In this document: positions 107 through 59,860 of the stretch, piece after piece
Layout of the letters: each line of letters begins with the position of its first letter
How positions within the stretch are numbered: the first letter of the stretch is position 1
Made by a program: the position numbers and the translations under genes
Notes under the pieces: model-generated
Databases searched by the model: none
Told to the model about the DNA's origin: nothing
Seen by the model: the letters and a program-made list of their open reading frames with translations, nothing else
NCBI GenBank assembly: GCA_034670405.1
Contig: JAXDDX010000041.1
Location: forward strand, 2,831,001-2,895,000
Direction of reading: 5' to 3'
Source: Hoplostethus atlanticus
Lineage: Eukaryota; Chordata; Actinopteri; Trachichthyiformes; Trachichthyidae
Length of the DNA: 64,000 nt

Positions 107-26018
<25,912 letters not shown>

Positions 26019-27486: not shown

Positions 27487-30400
27487 ATGGAGTGTGTTAG
27501 TATGGAGGATGAAATGCGTCTGACAGAGCTGAGGTTTGAAGCAGCCGTCAAAGTGATCAAGAGTTTACCTCCAGACGGTGAGTACCAGTCTGCAGCACTG
27601 TGGAGCCGTTTAATGTAGCAAGACCAGTTTACACACCAGTGCTTCTCTCAGTCTTTCAATGGGGCTTTTTCAGGTGAACAGAATGGTCTCATAAGTTGTA
27701 GGCCAGCTTGGGTTCGCCTTGCATTGATCTTGTGAGATTTAAAAGGCTTAACCACTTTACAAACCGACAGCATGTTGCTGCTTTGCAGTGCAGACTTGCT
27801 TCCCTGTCAGTAGTCTAGCACTTAATACAATACATTATCTCTTTGCAGTACATTCAAATTCATACTATTCAAATCTAGTCTCAAATCCTTAATTTTCATT
27901 TACTTCCCAAAGAAAAGACTATATTACCATTTCAGGAATTAAACCGATCAGCAATTTTACATGCAAAAAAAATGCAAAATGTGCTGTGAAATTCCATATT
28001 TAACATTTAATTTCCATTCATTCAGGTTCTTTTCAGCCCTCCAATGACATGATGCTCAAATTCTACAGTTACTACAAGCAAGCCACACTCGGCCCATGTA
28101 ACATACCCCGGCCTGGCTTCTGGGATGCTGTCGGCAAAGCGAAGTGGTAATAGGCAAAAGGAAATGGATAGTCTGTCAACAAGTTTTTCTTTAAATGCAC
28201 GCAGGGTTCCTACGCAGGTTTGGGAATGTATGGGGAAAATAATGTGGTAATTTCCAGGTCTTGATAAGTTTGGAATTTGCACAAAAATGTTGCGAAAAGG
28301 TGGAAAAATATGTGCCTACTGTCCCAATATACATGCAACACTTTTTAATTTTAATCTTTTGAGTGATATGGCTTAGGAAGGGGGCAAGACAACTATCTGT
28401 AAATCACATTGAACACCTCAATGTTCAGAGCAAGTCAAGAAATCAAAGTCTGGAAAAAGTATGGAACTTGAAATTGAAACTGTAAGAACTGCGTACTACA
28501 TGTTGCTTTTTTAATCCACTTTATTCTAATTGTGCAGAACACAAAAGACTAAATTCTACTCTCTGGATTTGCTTTTGAGTGTTATTCCCTCCATTTAGTC
28601 TCAGGTTATGTGATGTGATCTCTGGACTTGTGCACGGTGAAAGAAGGATTGGAATGTAACCTCTTACCCACTTGTCTGGATCCCAAAAATCACAAAAGCG
28701 GTTCTTGTAGGATTAGCACCAGTTATCAGTGATCTGTCAATTGTTAGGACTCAATCACTGACTAGTACTTCTTAACTCTGTTTAGGTGTTGTTCATTAAC
28801 AGGACGCATTAACCCCGACTAAAATGACAAATTTGAAAGCTGGAATGGAATTGTCCAAAACTGATTTCAGTGAACTGCAGTCCTTGTATTGAAGAGGCCT
28901 TTTAACTTGATACTGTAATCAATGTTTTTTCATTATCGTTCTTCAGGGATGCGTGGAATTCTCTTGGAGATATGCCAAAGGAAGAAGCAATGGCGGCCTA
29001 CGTTGACGAAATGAAACTGGTATTTTTATTTTCTCAATCATTTATTTTTACATCCCATGCAGCATGTTGATACGCAGGCATACCAACAATTTCTTATTGA
29101 TTGCAATATAGCAATATACAAACCACACACAAAAATATACAAACCACACACAAAAAAAATAGGTTCCACCTATTTTTTTTGTGTGTGGTTTGATGAATTT
29201 GAGATTGAGATCAAGTCCATTTGGTACTAATTGAGTTCGCTACTGTGTTTTGATCTGTAGATCATCGAGGGCATGCCCATCACAGACGAGGTCGAGGAGC
29301 TCCTCCGGGTCCTTGGCCCATTCTATGAGCTGGTGGATGAGCAGAAGAAGATCTCTCACATCTCAGACCTGAGCGCAGGTACATTTCGTTAGCTTGGTGC
29401 ATTCCATCTGTCATTTACTGTATTTGAAATGTCCAGAATGTGGAGCTTAACCGTTTTTAATTCACCTCTTATCAGCCCGTTTGACAAAGTTTGCTAGGCA
29501 ACTTGAAGGCAAGTACTTTATTGTGTGTAAATCCCTAAATGGTTCCCTTTCGTCTGGTGTTGTAGTTTAGTACGCGTTTGTCCGCTGTGGTAGTTCAGAT
29601 GCTTTTAGCGCTCATTAGAAATCCAGTTTTGGATGCTAGATTAGTGGAATACAGACTGTGGTTGAGCACTTATAGGTTTTACTTTGTCATCAAAAATGGA
29701 GATTGAACTCCATTTGACACAGATAAATCCAAGCTTTATCCGTGTTGAGTCACTGAAAACACCTCTGCTTTATTCACTGTTCCTAAACTGGATGAGTAAT
29801 TTGTTCAGCTCAAGACGGCTCGTCATTTAGTGTGTACAGTGATGCTACAAATGTAGTGATCCTCAGCTTTCTAAATAAACACTGCGGGTAGTTTCCATTT
29901 AATTGTAATGTAAAGAAGGTGTAATTAATCTTACCCTTAAAGGAGGCACTGTCAGTTATTGTCATCTTGTAATAAACCCGGTTTGGTTGCACAGGGTTTG
30001 GGACAATGCTGACATCAAAGAGTGTCACGAGGAGCATCGTCAGAAACTTGGAAATGAATGGCACCCTTGAGAGCTGGCCTGCCAGGGTCAATAAGCCCCT
30101 GGAATTGAGGGAAAAGGAGGAGGACGAGCAGCAGGAGGAAGACGAGGAGGATGAGGAGGAGGAGGAAGAAGAGGAGGAGGATGAGGAAGATGAAGATGAA
30201 GATGAAGAAGAAGCAGTGATACAGGAAGTCAAAAAAGGTGATTAAAATGATTAAACTATCAGGAAGTGGGGCAGGAAATTGTCAGCAGAAGAACATTTAG
30301 ATTTTTCTGATGATTGTATTTCAGACAAGAAAGTAGCAGCGTCACTGCCAAAGAAAAAGGGTTCAGCGCGGAGACCCAAAGTGCCCCTGGCAAACGGAAA

Positions 30401-35927: not shown

Positions 35928-41687
<5,760 letters not shown>

Positions 41688-42400
41688 GTTATTGGTTTCA
41701 AAGGAGGAATCGGGTTGTGTCCACGGCCAGCTGTCAGAAAGTAAACAGTTGCATGGTAAAACAACAAGGTTGGGGTTTGTTTTGAAGTTTTGAAATTTTG
41801 AATTCCGCTCCTCCGCCTGGGGTCCTGTGCCGTGTGTTAAGTAAGTAATTGCCCGTACAAAACCTTTGACTTACATGAAATGTACTCAAAGTGTGTTGTA
41901 ATGAAATAATGCTATAAAATTATAATGTTATGAAAGGGGATAGAATGTATATATTCAATTTCATGTAAACTCAAAATAGTTTCACGGAGCGATATTCTTA
42001 TTCTCCATAATGTATTTTCAATCAGGCAATATGGGGCACACATAGAAAATGTATCTATAAAAGTATCTATAAAATATTGTCCACATAATGAGCAAATGTA
42101 ACTTTAGAATGTTATTTTTTCCACGTATGGTTTAAGCAGTTTTATTCGTATTATCGTCAACGTGCAGTTTGAATTCCAGAAATGTGATGATGCAACTTGT
42201 ACCCGGTAGTAATTCTGATTTACGTCATTTTGTAGGCTCATTGACCTCCGAAGATTCCATTTGATGCCCGTAAGCTGCTGAAAGTTGTGTAACAAGGAAA
42301 ACAAAAGGACGGTGCTCTAGGAGGGCATATACAGTTATAGAGGGACTGTGCTTGTACACTAACTCTCAATATTTCGCCTAATTTTTATTACTCTGGAATA
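41688..42400. promoter_or_regulatory. Divergent MASTL/YME1L1 promoter region
   Basis: 713 bp separate the two start codons in head-to-head orientation. No repeat or open frame of note. Contents: ATTGG at 41690-41694, three CHR-like motifs (41781-41802) and the likely YME1L1 start near 42300. Shared regulation is plausible; the same arrangement is known in human. Confidence 0.6.
41781..41802 (-). promoter_or_regulatory. Three CHR-like TTTGAA motifs upstream of MASTL
   Basis: TTTGAA occurs at 41781, 41789 and 41797, with an exact 8-bp period, 95-115 bp upstream of the MASTL start codon. TTTGAA is the cell cycle genes homology region (CHR) bound by MuvB in DREAM and B-MYB complexes at G2/M promoters. 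MASTL is a G2/M gene, so this context fits. Function is inferred. Confidence 0.5.
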
Positions 42401-51160
<8,760 letters not shown>

Positions 51161-52722: not shown

Positions 52723-55700
52723 ATGGAGGACACAGAAGAGGACATAGCAATTGTTGGGGTTGGATGCAATTTCCCTGGAGGTAAGGCTAAAACATATTTA
52801 AATCAATATTTTGCAGTGCAGTCTGAATTTAAGACATTATAACCACTAGGGTACGTTTGTTTTCAGGCGAGGGACTGGACAATTTCTGGAAAGTTCTATT
52901 GGAGGGAAAGAATTGTGTTGCGGATATTCCAGAGGAGAGGTTTGACAGCGCCTATTGGTATGATCCTGATGATAGAAAACCTGGAAAGACACAGACAACC
53001 CAAGCTGCTCTTATAAATGGGTAAGCTCTAAACGTGAGACTTTCTAATGATTGTGATATCTGTTAAGCAAGTATTGATTCCTCTCTGGAAAGGTTTTTAA
53101 TTTGTGACCGATACCTCCATTTGTCCTTCAGCTTTAATGAGTTCGATCACAAGTTTTTTGGCATCACTGAAGCTGAGGCTGACTTCATGGACCCTCAGCA
53201 GAAACTCCTTCTACAGTGTACATACAGGGCATTAGAAGATGCTGGAATGCCTATGGAGACCATCAGTGGAAGCAGAACTGGAGTTTATATAGGTAACCAC
53301 TGTTCTATGATGCATGAAAGTGTTGATGGAACAATGTAACACTATAATGATTATAATATGGTCTGTGTTGAATATATTGTTGCAGGTCTTATGAACAGGG
53401 ACTATGAGACCCTCCTAAACAACAGTCCTAGCACAATAACCCACTACAACGCAACTGGGGCGGCTATGAGTGTTGCTGCCAACAGAATATCCTTCACCTT
53501 CAATCTCACTGGCCCTTCTTTCGCCATTGACAGTGCCTGTTCCTCGTCTTTGGTGGCTCTGCATTCAGCCTGCCAGGCTATGAAGCAAAGTATTGCACTT
53601 GTTCAATTCTCTCTTCCTGACAAATTCAAATTCACATTCAGTGACAAAAGCAGGCTAATTACTGCATGCTTTTATGCTTTCATTCTCATTTCTCTTCTCA
53701 ACCAGGAGACTGTGAGATGGCTCTATGTGGAGGGGTCAGCTGTATCATAGAGCCAAGAGTCTTTGTTGCTCTGAGCAAGGGAAAGATGATCTCACCTGAA
53801 GGAACCAGCAAGCCTTTCTCCAGCAGAGCAGATGGTTATGGCAGAGGAGAGGGCTGTGGGGTAGTTCTGCTGAAACCACTGAAAAATGTAAGTACATTAT
53901 AGTTTGTTTTCACAACCATGTCATTGTCTGAATGAATGTACTGCCATAGAGGTAATTGCTAGCCTACTAATGATATGCTTTTCTATACAAAGGCTATAAG
54001 AGACTTCAACAAGATTTGGGGAATCGTCTCCAAAACAGCAGTCAACCAAGATGGCCGCTCAGTCACTCCAATCACCAAGCCCTCCATGGTTCAACAAGAG
54101 GAGCTTCTGCGCAGAATCTACTCAGGGTCTGACCTTGCAAATGTCCAGTACATAGAGGCACACGGGACCGGAACCCCAATTGGAGACCCAGCAGAGGCAG
54201 GGAGCATCTCAAACGTCATTGCTAAAGCCAGACCTCCAGGTTCAGAGACACTCCGCATCGGCTCTGTGAAGAGCAACATTGGACACACAGAATCTGCAGC
54301 TGGAGTGGCAGGGCTCATTAAGGTACTCTTAATGATAAAGCATGAAACCATTGTTACCTCTGTTTTCTACTCCGAAGACAGTGCCAGTGTAGATGTAAAA
54401 GCTCTCAGTATAAATATTCCCACCAAAGCTGAGAAATGGGAGACAAATGGGTCTTTAGAGAGGGTAGCTGGGATCAACAGCTTTGGGTTTGGAGGCACAA
54501 ATGCACATGCAATTGTAAAAGAGTACAGGCAGGCCACCATTCCCAAACTGATCCCCCATGGCTGTCGAAAGCTCTTTGTACTTTCTGCAGCTTCAGAGAA
54601 ATCATTGATCTTGTCCATCACTGACACTCACCAGAGGCTTTGCCGAGATAAAACAGTTGACATACAGGCATTATCATATACCTCAGCATGTAGGAGGAGT
54701 CATTACAAACACAAATATAGGAAAGCCTTCCTAATGTCTTCCCTCTCTGATTTAGAGCATCAGCTGACATCTGCATTGAACAAGAAAGTTGAGTCAACAA
54801 AGTCAGGCACCCATTTGGTCTTTGTGTTTTGTGGAAATGGGGTGACCTACAGGGGTATGTGCATGCAGCTTCTGAGAGAGGTGCCTGTGTTTAGAGAGAA
54901 GGTCAAAGAAGTTGAGAATCTCTTCCAAAGTTATAAAAATACTAGCATCAACCAAAAGATCACAAATGACTATGACAATGATGATTACACCAAGCCAGAC
55001 ATTGTCCAGCCTCTTCTCTTTGCTATTCAGGTTGGCATCGTCAGTCTTCTAAAGCATTGGGGTGTCAAACCTGATGCTATTCTTGGACACTCTGTTGGAG
55101 AGGTTGCTGCTGCTCACTGTTCTGGCCTTTTATCTCTTGAGGATGCAGTGAAGGTGGTGTACCACCGCAGTACTCTCCAGAGCAAGGTCACAGGAGGGAA
55201 AATGCTCGTAGTCAGTAATGTGGCTGTAGCAAAGGTCTTAGAAATCCTTCCAGCATTCTCTGGGAAAATTTGTGTAGCAGCTTTCAACAGCCCTCAGTCC
55301 TGCACTCTGTCCGGTGATGCAGATGCTATACACACCCTCCACCAGAGGCTGAAGACCATGTTTACAGATACAAATATCTTCCTTTGTGTCTTAGATGTTC
55401 CAGCTGCATACCACAGCCATATGATGGATCCCATAGTAGGTGACATTGAGAAAAGTATTGACTCTTTGGCTGTCAACAATATGGAGTGTGGACTTTTTTC
55501 AACAGTGACTGGAAACAAGCATTCGTATGGTGACTTTAGCACAGGCAGGTATTGGGCTAAGAATATTAGAGAGCCTGTTTTATTTGAACAAACACTGCGG
55601 GCTGCAACCAAGGACAAGAAGTCAAGAAGCAATGTGGTCTTTGTGGAGATTGGACCTCGTAGGGCTCTCCAAAGGAACATCCATGAAACTTTGGGTAATG

Positions 55701-58700
55701 ACCACATAGTTCTCTCCTCAGTGCAGCCGGAGAAAGATTATGAGACAATCCTGTCTACAGTGGCAAAACTATTTGAACTGGGCATTCATGTAGACTGGCA
55801 TCAGCTCTATAGCGGTAGCGAGACATTGCCAACAGCTCTTCCAGTCTATCAGTTTGATGACCTGAAGAAAGAGGTGTATTTTGAAGCTGTAAGAAAAAGA
55901 AATGAAACAACTGCTTCCTCTCACCATCCACTGCTATCCCAAATAAAGCAGGATAATAAAGAGTACAAGTGCAATCTCTCATTAGAGACTGCACCCTATC
56001 TTTGGGAGCATAAAAACAATGGTGTTGCCATTGTGCCAGGGGCGTTGTACGTTGAACTAGCTTATGCCTCAGTAATGGCAAGTTTAAGGCCAAAGAAGCC
56101 CATTTCCTTGCTCCAGCTCAGTGTAACTTTTCACAGTCTGTTTACACTCAGTTCACACTCACATCAGTTGAAAGTAACACTGGAGCATGCAGAGAATGAG
56201 ACTATGTTTAAAGTACAGTCTTCTTCTGCAACACATGCATCTGGCGCATATAGATGTACAACTGGCCAGCCATTGTTAGAAGAACAAACCATTTGCCTTG
56301 ACATTATCTTCCAAAGGTGCAAAGTGGTTATCAAGAGAAAAGAGATTTACTCAATTCTTTCTCAAGCAGGATTTGAATATGGTTCTATTTTCAAACAGCT
56401 CGACGATGTGCAGATTGGATATGAATTCAAGGAAGCCGTGACAGCAATTCACGTCCCTGGTGAGGTTCTGAAACACCTTCATGATTATTTCATCCACCCT
56501 GTGTTATTGGACTATTTCTTACAAATGACTGCTGTAGTAGCCATCGGCGGGCTAACAGCCAAGCAGGTATTCCCCTCAGCAATCGGCTGTGTAGCCATAT
56601 CAGGACCACTCCAAGAGGAAATGGTCATGTATTTAAGAGCAACTCAAGAGACTCCAGACTTCATTGATGTATGTGGCTGCTTTTCCACTAAAGAGGGGAA
56701 TGTACTGATGGAACTTAAGGAGGTGAGGGATCTCATTTTTGGGCCATTGCTCAAATGTTGTAGAGCCACTGTTCTTCCACAGTGAAATCATCTCACTTAC
56801 TGATGAGATTGACTTCAACTGCAAAATAAAGGCCATAGTTTTTGAGGACAAACAAGGCATTGCTAAAGCACTTAGACCATATGTACACCCAGAATCAGTC
56901 ATTGTGCAGAACAGAGACTACTGGTTGGCTGACCAGCTTCGACACTTAGTGTTTCACTCACTTTACACTGATGTGGATTTGGAGGAGGTTCTCTTCTTTT
57001 GGGGTGTGCAGGACCTCAGTCACCTGTCATCTGAGAAGATCCTGGAATGCTTGGTTACTTGCTGTGAGCTATTTCGCCAGATTGTTTTAGTTTTGAAAGA
57101 GAGCAAACGCTCTTGCACTATCCGGGTCATAGCTTATAGATCAACAGAGAAAACTGTGGACCATATCAGTCCTGGTTTTGTGCTCTCTGGTATGACAAGG
57201 GCCTGTGCAGCAGAGATGGCAGGGCTCTCTTTCCAGCTGATTGACCTTGCCTCTATGACCAGTGAAGACATTCAAACTCTGGTTCATGTTATAAACACCT
57301 GTAAACAACAAGAGGTCATAATAAGCAAAGGGCAGGCATCAGCAACAAGAATAGTGCGAACCCCCATAAAAGACATGGCTTTATGTGAGGGTGGTATGGA
57401 TTCAGTGTATATTAAGGACTTTGTCCTACAGACTGCTGATCCATACAGAATGGCAAACTTGTCTGCCATCCCCTGTGATGCACACATAAATATTGGCCAA
57501 GGGAATTTAGTTGAGATTCAGCTCATGAATGTATGTGTGCACTCATCTGATTACTTTCCTGTCAGTAGTTCACATTTGAATTTCAGCGAAACAATGTATT
57601 GGAACAAGCACACGTCTCAGAATCACAAGCTTCTGGCGTTAGATTTTAGTGGCATTGTCACAGCTGTTGGGAAAGATGTTCAAGAACTCAAAGTTGGAGA
57701 TCATATTGTTTCTTGTTATCCAGTAGGTGCCACTTCAAAGATTTTGATTCCTGAAGCAGTGTGCTACAACACAAAGAGACTCCCATTTCTGAGAGAAATT
57801 CCCTGTGTATCTTACTTTGTGCTGGCATGGGAGATCATGCAGAGAATCCTACCACAGGTAAAGCAACATCACAGGAAGTTGGCCATCATCTCCTCCAGTC
57901 CAGCTTCCGTTTTGCTAAAGGTTTTAGCTCTGACAGCAAACAAGTCAGGGTGGAACGTTACCTCTCTGCCACATTTCAGAAGGGAACTCCTGAATATCGA
58001 TCAGTGTCATGCATTTGTTTTTCTGCCACCATTTGATCAGTCTTGGCAGGGGATAAATGGAAGTGATGGCCTGGAGAGACACATTATTTTTGTGTGTAAC
58101 AATCAAATGTCGTCCTCACTCTCAGCAAACATGTTTGCACAGGAGAGTGAAGACCTGCATGTACACAAACTTAATGTGTCCAGTGTTTTCCAGAGAGCCA
58201 ATCTAAAAACACAAAAAAGAAAGATTTTTCATTGGCTAATGTCATTAGGCTTCAATGCAGTATCACTACCTCTAAAAAGGGATACGTTTCAGTTACCGGG
58301 CACAAGAGAAGCTCAGACCAATGCAGATGTTGAGTCCTACTTTACAGCAAAGTTGGTGCAGCAAGTGGTTTTAGACCATGAAGGATCTGATTCTCCAGTG
58401 TCTGATATCCCTTTGCTTACAAGGCCAAGGCAACTCTTTAAACAAAGCTATGTCTACATTGTGACTGGAGGGCTCTCGGGTCTGGGACTTGAGACAGTCA
58501 AGCTCATTGCGCATAATGGTGGAGGTTGCATTGCAACACTTTCCAGAAGTATTATCTCAGCTGAAATGCAGTCTGAGATGGAAACACTCCAGAAAAAATG
58601 CGGGGTGACAATCGCCAATGTCCAGTGTGATGTTTCTGTGTCAACGCAGGTGGTGGAGGCAATCTCAAAGATTGGACAAAGGTTCCCTTCTTGTCCAATC

Positions 58701-59492
58701 AAAGGCGTGTTTCACAGTGCTGCAGTGTTACATGATGCACTGATTGAAACTCTTGATCAGTCCCTCTTCCAAAAGGTCTTACAACCAAAAGTGAATGGGG
58801 CTCTAAACCTTCACTACGCAACGCTGCACAACAAACTGGATTTCTTTGTGTGTTACTCGTCCATCTCTTCCTTCATTGGTAATGCCTCACAGTGTAACTA
58901 TGCGGCAGCCAATTCCTTCCTAGACACATTTTGTCATTATCGGAGAAACCTTGGACTTGCTGGACAGTCCATCAACTGGGGTCCTTTGAACCTCGGTCTC
59001 CTGTTGAACAAAGACAATTTCCAAAGGTTCCTGGAGACAAAAGGGATGATGATTATGGATGTGTGTGAGGTTCACAAAGCTCTTGAAAAGTGTCTGTTGA
59101 TGAACAACCCACAGCAAGTTATATGCAAATTCAACTTCAAAAATCTAAACAATCATGTTCTTTCACAAAATGCTGCTCTCAGAGAACGACTGTCAGCTTT
59201 GGTGGAAATGGAACTGAAAGACAATACACTGAATGAGCCCAGGGTTCAGCATGTGTCTTCCATACACGACAGTCTGAGAACAATTCTCAGTGAGATAGGC
59301 AATATTAGAGATGATGTGGATGAGCTGGATGATGAGACAGCTCTGTGTGCATTGGGCATTGACTCAATGTTGGCCATGACTCTGCAGAACAAGATTTTCC
59401 AAGAGACAGGTGTGAATGTGCCTTTGGTTAGAATACTGGACCCCAATAGTACGCTGAAAACATTGGTAACTACTGTAAGGGATGGTGGATAA
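52723..59492 (+). CDS. Type I polyketide synthase (animal PKS, fish pks1-like), with apparent frameshift
   Basis: Iterative multidomain synthase that builds a polyketide from malonyl-type units on its ACP. Exons: 52723-52780, 52867-53020, 53132-53292, 53386-53589, 53706-53887, 53993-59492; about 2,085 residues if the shift is ignored. Order: KS (start [14 protein letters not shown]; Cys 176 in DSACSSS, His 310 in EAHGTG, His 351 in NIGHTES); AT (Ser 620 in GHSVGE, His near 727 in YHSH); DH (His 926 in HxxxGxxxxP, Asp 1093 in [10 protein letters not shown]); pseudo-KR ([17 protein letters not shown]); ER-like ([20 protein letters not shown], cofactor loop degenerate); KR ([14 protein letters not shown]); ACP (LGIDSM, Ser near 2044). 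No thioesterase. The frame changes at about 56,727, after the DH. Fish orthologues (zebrafish and medaka pks1) are, as I recall, needed for otolith seeding; the avian relative MuPKS makes psittacofulvin pigment. Fatty acid synthase is excluded by missing TE and sequence style. Confidence 0.9.
53993..56722 (+). CDS. PKS last exon, 5' part (end of KS, AT, DH)
   Basis: The first reading frame of the 5.5-kb exon, from [12 protein letters not shown] through the DH domain to MELKE. Past GAG (56722) this frame runs only about 20 more codons of unlike sequence to a stop at 56783-56785. All KS, AT and DH catalytic residues seen here are intact. Confidence 0.85.
56727..59492 (+). CDS. PKS last exon, 3' part (pseudo-KR, ER-like, KR, ACP)
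   Basis: The second frame, opening at 56727 ([20 protein letters not shown]...) and staying open for 921 codons to TAA at 59490-59492. It carries the structural KR half, the ER-like domain, the KR with intact glycine-rich loop and YxxxN, and the ACP. A 2.7-kb undisturbed frame indicates recent selection or a sequencing error at the junction rather than old decay. Confidence 0.85.
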   Translation, partial: GISFLGHCSNVVEPLFFHSEIISLTDEIDFNCKIKAIVFEDKQGIAKALRPYVHPESVIVQNRDYWLADQLRHLVFHSLYTDVDLEEVLFFWGVQDLSHLSSEKILECLVTCCELFRQIVLVLKESKRSCTIRVIAYRSTEKTVDHISPGFVLSGMTRACAAEMAGLSFQLIDLASMTSEDIQTLVHVINTCKQQEVIISKGQASATRIVRTPIKDMALCEGGMDSVYIKDFVLQTADPYRMANLSAIPCDAHINIGQGNLVEIQLMNVCVHSSDYFPVSSSHLNFSETMYWNKHTSQNHKLLALDFSGIVTAVGKDVQELKVGDHIVSCYPVGATSKILIPEAVCYNTKRLPFLREIPCVSYFVLAWEIMQRILPQVKQHHRKLAIISSSPASVLLKVLALTANKSGWNVTSLPHFRRELLNIDQCHAFVFLPPFDQSWQGINGSDGLERHIIFVCNNQMSSSLSANMFAQESEDLHVHKLNVSSVFQRANLKTQKRKIFHWLMSLGFNAVSLPLKRDTFQLPGTREAQTNADVESYFTAKLVQQVVLDHEGSDSPVSDIPLLTRPRQLFKQSYVYIVTGGLSGLGLETVKLIAHNGGGCIATLSRSIISAEMQSEMETLQKKCGVTIANVQCDVSVSTQVVEAISKIGQRFPSCPIKGVFHSAAVLHDALIETLDQSLFQKVLQPKVNGALNLHYATLHNKLDFFVCYSSISSFIGNASQCNYAAANSFLDTFCHYRRNLGLAGQSINWGPLNLGLLLNKDNFQRFLETKGMMIMDVCEVHKALEKCLLMNNPQQVICKFNFKNLNNHVLSQNAALRERLSALVEMELKDNTLNEPRVQHVSSIHDSLRTILSEIGNIRDDVDELDDETALCALGIDSMLAMTLQNKIFQETGVNVPLVRILDPNSTLKTLVTTVRDGG

Positions 59493-59794: not shown

Positions 59795-59860
59795 CTTTCT
59801 GCTGCAATGACTGAATTTCCCCACAGGGATCAATAAAGTTTCATCTTATCTTACCAAACA
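59795..59860 (+). repeat. Teleost retroposon 3' tail, second copy
   Basis: CAATGACTGAATTTCCCCAC followed by AGGGATCAATAAAGTTTC and ATCTTATCTTA is the same tail type as at 44385-44440. Confidence 0.6.
59832..59837 (+). terminator. Likely PKS polyadenylation signal within a retroposon tail
   Basis: AATAAA 340 nt after the PKS stop lies in CCCCACAGGGATCAATAAAG, the teleost retroposon tail also seen at 44385. The gene may use a repeat-derived signal. Confidence 0.4.

Follow-up and report, generated by a model that had tools for sequence, protein, structure and literature searches.

Type I polyketide synthases (PKSs) of vertebrates were tabulated in 2015 (PMC4604110), and a 2024 survey describes them as relatively widespread in this group (PMC10764717). 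Medaka OlPKS (the ha locus) is described as a six-exon gene encoding 2051 residues in the order ketosynthase (KS)-acyltransferase (AT)-dehydratase (DH)-ketoreductase (KR)-acyl carrier protein (ACP); it is required for otolith nucleation, its rescue needs every enzymatic domain along with the ACP, and otoliths were restored by an extract of a fungus expressing it (PMC4604110). In zebrafish, pks1 mutants form no otoliths, a defect that medaka pks1 rescues (PMC6531356); a second zebrafish PKS gene is listed in PMC4604110. The animal PKS group treated in PMC6334511 is presented there as having no integrated release domain, with a trans-acting partner suggested; in the same account duck AT accepts acetyl- and malonyl-CoA, MuPKS has an inactive enoylreductase (ER), as ApPKS may have too. 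Here we analyze a gene of this kind, PKS-A, at positions 52723-59492 (+) of a 64,000-nucleotide stretch of Hoplostethus atlanticus DNA (the window; contig C41, positions 2831001-2895000), together with its sister gene PKS-B, just past the window end. Given the publications above, the surprise that a preliminary description of the locus attached to a vertebrate PKS is smaller than stated there.

PKS-A is a genuine type I PKS gene, and it probably belongs to the pks1/OlPKS type, encoding an iterative, partially reducing synthase whose unsaturated chain would be released in trans and serve otolith nucleation. Its exons, built from splice sites and frames, run from an ATG at 52723 to a stop codon at 59490-59492 (Table 1). 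Domains and motifs were called on a bridged model of 2071 residues that skips positions 56723-56765 and comprises six exons plus the block 56766-59492. In this model Pfam finds KS (295.7 bits), AT, DH, KR and PP-binding domains, each above its own cut-off. The KS retains Cys176, His310 and His351, the KR retains TGGLSGLG and NYAAAN, and the ACP retains GIDSM, with 41 residues following Ser2030 to the C terminus. The DH motif HxxxGxxxxP is complete, a feature expected to separate OlPKS from OlPKS-2/3. The order KS-AT-DH-KR-ACP with these active-site residues is that of an otolith-type PKS (OlPKS/pks1), and no thioesterase (TE) is found among the Pfam matches of PKS-A, as expected of an otolith-type PKS and not of an animal fatty acid synthase (FAS). 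The preliminary description is thus borne out in seeing a vertebrate type I PKS with the key KS, AT, DH, KR and ACP residues and no release domain in the roughly 40 residues after the ACP serine. The kinship it named with fish otolith and avian PKSs agrees with published descriptions, and the product and release step that it left open are likewise open in those accounts (PMC4604110, PMC6531356, PMC6334511).

The full reducing-type domain set that was also claimed is not supported. Profile searches found no cofactor (nucleotide-binding) half, as a working ER would have, in either PKS-A or PKS-B; what can be recognized is the GroES-like half (ADH_N), at 22.0 bits in whole PKS-A (below the cut-off of 23.5), 25.3 bits in its isolated ER region and 27.6 bits in PKS-B. 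No other family matched the ER region of either protein at E up to 10, in a search where HMMER filters discard most hits with E above about 0.1. When the two C-terminal halves were combined into one profile, 71 PDB sequences matched; among the 60 listed the best stretch was always in the KR-ACP part, and the sole ER-like piece of the two alignments displayed was the GroES-like stretch of MAS (7.2 bits, not significant alone). The pseudo-KR of the preliminary description is plausible by position, with a Rossmann match in the DH-ER stretch that stays below threshold in PKS-A (13.2 bits) and is absent from PKS-B. AlphaFold, run on the ER-like region as a single sequence, gave a model that was discarded (mean predicted local distance difference test score 32.7). 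As only the GroES-like half of the ER is recognizable, the likeliest reading of PKS-A is a polyene-type synthase whose ER is dead and from which unsaturated chains are expected.

Under this scenario, the AT would charge the ACP with a short starter and with malonyl units, the KS would elongate the chain, and the KR and DH would act on it. As no working ER would remove them, the double bonds would persist, leaving an unsaturated acyl chain that would depart from the ACP in trans; the product, secreted into the otic vesicle, would trigger calcium carbonate nucleation. The otolith role in H. atlanticus would follow by analogy with medaka and zebrafish, in which that function has been demonstrated, and with medaka for an extractable active product. 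The TE profile PF00975, run against the genome (632.8 Mb, 1161 contigs) with 10 candidates scored, gave two matches, a FASN-like locus on contig C164 and a separate gene on contig C6. The exon pieces of the latter match a medium-chain S-acyl FAS thioesterase (4xjv, E 3.5e-47) as well as RifR, a stand-alone thioesterase (E 2.4e-28). Therefore, a trans-acting thioesterase is available in the genome, and it may serve the PKS.

PKS-A and PKS-B are convergent, their stop codons 4.8 kb apart, and share 58.8% identity over 2048 aligned residues. In PKS-B, the end of the KS through the ACP lies within a single uninterrupted exon, and the DH motif, HTHNGIPIIAG, has no proline at the end of HxxxGxxxxP. 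Two stretches of the KS are nearly identical in the two genes, one at 53726-53887 (8 mismatches in 162 nucleotides) and the other spanning His310 and His351 (Table 1), with diverged sequence around intron 5 between them; a DNA search of the genome returned PKS-A itself and two PKS-B stretches at 95% and 93%. Four-fold degenerate sites agree at 87 of 98 positions in residues 194-400 versus 155 of 410 outside the KS and AT stretches, and the longest identical run, 46 sites, was equalled in none of 10,000 permutations. Such near-identity at silent sites is a mark of gene conversion, and the KS tracts look like what conversion between PKS-A and PKS-B leaves behind. For the AT stretch, where 25 of 39 four-fold sites in residues 573-662 agree, the signal is weaker and we do not claim a further tract; once the KS tract was removed, 186 of 10,000 permutations scored as high. 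A limited literature search on gene conversion gave nothing relevant, returning only a Blastocystis paper.

In PKS-A, joining 53993-56722 to 56766-59492 requires that 43 nucleotides be skipped as a sixth 'intron'. These match PKS-B coding DNA at 24 of 42 bases, and their peptide in the downstream frame is identical to LIKYLGTRSYVVE of PKS-B at 7 of 13 residues, a match as good as which was seen in 0 of 20,000 shuffles; the upstream frame scores -23. Taken as one block, exon 6 measures 5500 nucleotides, a multiple of three plus one. From this alignment and this length, PKS-A carries a one-base frame change and sits one base away from an open frame, so the intact gene tacitly assumed in the preliminary description is not supported; as written, the upstream frame ends at the TGA after the DH. 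PKS-B fits the six-exon plan of OlPKS, and PKS-A fits it only with the frame change set aside. That the 43 nucleotides are a genuine ultra-short intron, leaving PKS-A intact as originally joined, is very improbable despite their GT...AG ends and the in-frame join, since they align with PKS-B coding sequence as above, PKS-B has no intron at the site, introns 1-5 of PKS-A are 86-116 nucleotides long, the acceptor AG used comes two bases after another AG, and OlPKS is reported with six exons in total (PMC4604110). A genome search with the C-terminal half found no alternative haplotype copy, its three matches being PKS-A, PKS-B and a weak FASN-like one. The frame change may stem from an error in the assembly, be allelic, or be a lesion fixed in the species. 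An assembly error is favoured because the rest of the PKS-A model is open and its motifs are intact; sequencing errors often account for a lone one-base difference in assembled DNA. On both counts it is rather less probable, though still a real contender, that PKS-A is a recent pseudogene in H. atlanticus with its function carried by PKS-B or by neither gene, as the position of the change in the DH/linker region, the stop soon after it and the open frame of PKS-B along its whole length might suggest. The dependence of otoliths on the gene in medaka and zebrafish mutants (PMC4604110, PMC6531356) likewise argues against a pseudogene, and living H. atlanticus presumably carry a working allele.

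A further alternative, that the PKS-A protein is a divergent FAS, is the least probable of all. The domain order is the same as in FAS, and the KS tree permits a grouping with the genome's FASN-like row. However, PKS-A has no TE and a degenerate ER, the genome has its own FASN-like locus (on C164, with KS exons and the TE match), and published trees place animal PKSs outside FAS (PMC4604110, PMC6334511). PKS chains also lead the PDB comparison: 254 sequences matched PKS-A and, among the best 60 listed, ranks 1-31 are PKS chains, with 7zma at 678 bits (three stretches) and MAS at 573, the first FAS coming at rank 32 (2vz8, 417 bits) and the sea-slug EcPKS1 and EcPKS2 lower (365 and 336 bits). 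The KS tree had 20 rows, namely PKS-A, PKS-B, the FASN-like KS, an OXSM-like gene of the genome and 16 bacterial KSs, among them rows from a search that matched 123 of 149 genomes; loci L023 and L024 gave no row to the motif filter, L025-L028 were unused, and rows came from 4 of the 15 loci L029-L043. The tree joined PKS-A and PKS-B at 100/100 and did not settle their wider placement; with a single FAS row, it is no test of FAS placement. With the exon 6 part of PKS-A as query, a scan of bacterial genomes gave no relative; with the PKS-A/PKS-B KS alignment, a scan gave 7 loci.

Several points weigh against PKS-A as a working gene of the pks1/OlPKS type. The frame as written halts after the DH, so the assembled sequence yields no KR or ACP. 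Orthology to pks1 is argued from motifs, exon plan and neighbours, and the short-chain dehydrogenase (SDR) gene beyond PKS-B is one that we take to be rdh12-like by eye. None of the NCBIfam models listed reaches its cut-off, the best being NF045894, 'type I polyketide synthase' (475 bits against 1740). The approximately unbiased (AU) test does not reject a grouping of PKS-A, PKS-B and FASN (p 0.50, with one FAS row). For medaka, the OlPKS product is reported as undetected by high-performance liquid chromatography (PMC4604110). Weighed together with the domain evidence, a pks1/OlPKS-type gene is still the probable identity of PKS-A.

Table 1. Features of PKS-A, its sister gene and their surroundings (window positions unless a contig is given)
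Feature	Position	Strand	Basis
PKS-A exon 1, start codon and KS start	52723..52780	+	matching boundary in PKS-B
PKS-A exon 2, KS	52867..53020	+	exon model, PKS-B comparison
PKS-A exon 3, KS	53132..53292	+	exon model, PKS-B comparison
PKS-A exon 4, KS active Cys176, DSACSSSL	53386..53589	+	exon model, motif
PKS-A exon 5, KS	53706..53887	+	exon model
PKS-A exon 6 up to frame change: remaining KS, AT, DH	53993..56722	+	frame, Pfam
Tract shared with PKS-B, gene-conversion-like (6 mismatches in 365 nucleotides), spanning KS His310 and His351	54031..54395	+	
AT domain PF00698, active Ser620 at ~55091	54818..55738	+	Pfam, motif
DH domain PF21089 and PF14765, His926, Asp1093	55925..56719	+	Pfam, motif
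43 nucleotides with the frame change, homologous to PKS-B coding sequence	56723..56765	+	alignment
Exon 6 remainder, downstream frame: linker, ER remnant, KR, ACP, stop	56766..59492	+	
TGA closing the upstream frame, after the DH	56783..56785	+	sequence as written
ER remnant, GroES-like (ADH_N) half only	57567..57716	+	profile searches
KR domain PF08659	58452..58988	+	Pfam, motifs
ACP PF00550, Ser2030 at ~59364	59271..59474	+	Pfam, motif
PKS-B, intact sister PKS, 2102 residues, six exons	C41:2895328-2903056	-	
SDR exons, ~10 kb past PKS-B	C41:2913507-2915706	-	
Stand-alone OLAH-type thioesterase gene (L050)	C6:9668762-9668902 region		PF00975, PDB
Abl interactor exon	16484-16948	-	PDB search
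Greatwall kinase exon	41244-41870	-	PDB search
FtsH/YME1-type AAA protease exon	47267-47542	+	Pfam, PDB search

Among ten neighbouring exons, Pfam matched three (AAA, AAA lid, and a kinase below cut-off). The SDR gene near the PKS pair has as its best PDB match 3rd5, which does not bear the rdh12 name, and the genes between are partly annotated; a reverse-transcriptase-like frame, recognized by eye, lies between PKS-B and the SDR at C41:2906511-2907212 (-), and a further short copy sits near 2904700. Past the PKS-A stop codon, the first AATAAA (~59832) falls within the apparent tail of a fish interspersed repeat (window 59815-59850), and the poly(A) signal of the gene may derive from a transposable element. 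Elsewhere, the window contains a UnaL2 long interspersed nuclear element 3' element at 4317-4371 (+) (Rfam RF00436, 62.5 bits) and, at 29976-30242 (+), a Glu/Asp repeat (an acidic codon run) in an exon that we presume, by eye, to be acbd5.

The gene belongs to a kind already known in vertebrates; new here are PKS-B, the tracts that point to conversion, the SDR near the pair and the candidate trans-acting thioesterase. The degenerate ER, the SDR and the stand-alone acyl-ACP-type thioesterase offer handles on the product and release step of otolith PKSs, and PKS-B offers another, its KS being near-identical through putative conversion and its DH motif changed. Automatic annotation of this assembly may yield a truncated PKS-A protein or a false 43-nucleotide intron. 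Psittacofulvins occur as aldehydes and are modified by ALDH3A2, according to PMC13405874, which makes an SDR or aldehyde dehydrogenase partner conceivable. One might go further and suppose that the PKS pair and the rdh12-like SDR form a small biosynthetic cluster, in which a polyene would leave through a trans-acting enzyme (an OLAH-type thioesterase, or reductively), the SDR would set an aldehyde or alcohol end, and a retinoid-like polyenal or polyenol would be the otolith nucleator, with conversion keeping the KS cores alike while the DH diverges to give two related products per genome; we consider this scheme unlikely.

Among known systems, the sea-slug AFPKs EcPKS1 and EcPKS2 are, like PKS-A, animal type I synthases without a TE; they match it more weakly, and AFPKs are reported absent from vertebrates (PMC10764717). 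MAS is likewise a single-module PKS without a TE (PMC6334511) and second-best among the PDB matches listed; unlike PKS-A it is bacterial, and of its ER only the GroES-like stretch aligns, weakly. The budgerigar MuPKS and duck ApPKS share with PKS-A the plan KS-AT-DH-(ER)-KR-ACP and the missing release domain, and the ER of some avian members is described as being without the canonical NADPH motif (PMC6334511); PKS-A and PKS-B, with no ER cofactor half detected, resemble MuPKS, and perhaps ApPKS, in this respect. The MuPKS product is given as feather pigment polyenes (PMC6334511, PMC7036892, PMC13405874), whereas the role of the fish gene is otolith nucleation. Zebrafish pks1 (nco, csr, vns), compared here by description, adjoins an SDR gene of rdh12 type, rdh12l, which is down-regulated in the nco mutant (PMC6531356). 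Closest is medaka OlPKS, also compared by description and not by alignment, with the same KS-AT-DH-KR-ACP order, about 2050 residues and active-site motifs reported as conserved (PMC4604110), the one-base frame change in PKS-A being a difference. Medaka has three related genes in that account and H. atlanticus, by our genome search, at least two; the complete DH of PKS-A beside the altered DH of PKS-B parallels OlPKS beside OlPKS-2/3, which are marked DH* in the published table (PMC4604110).

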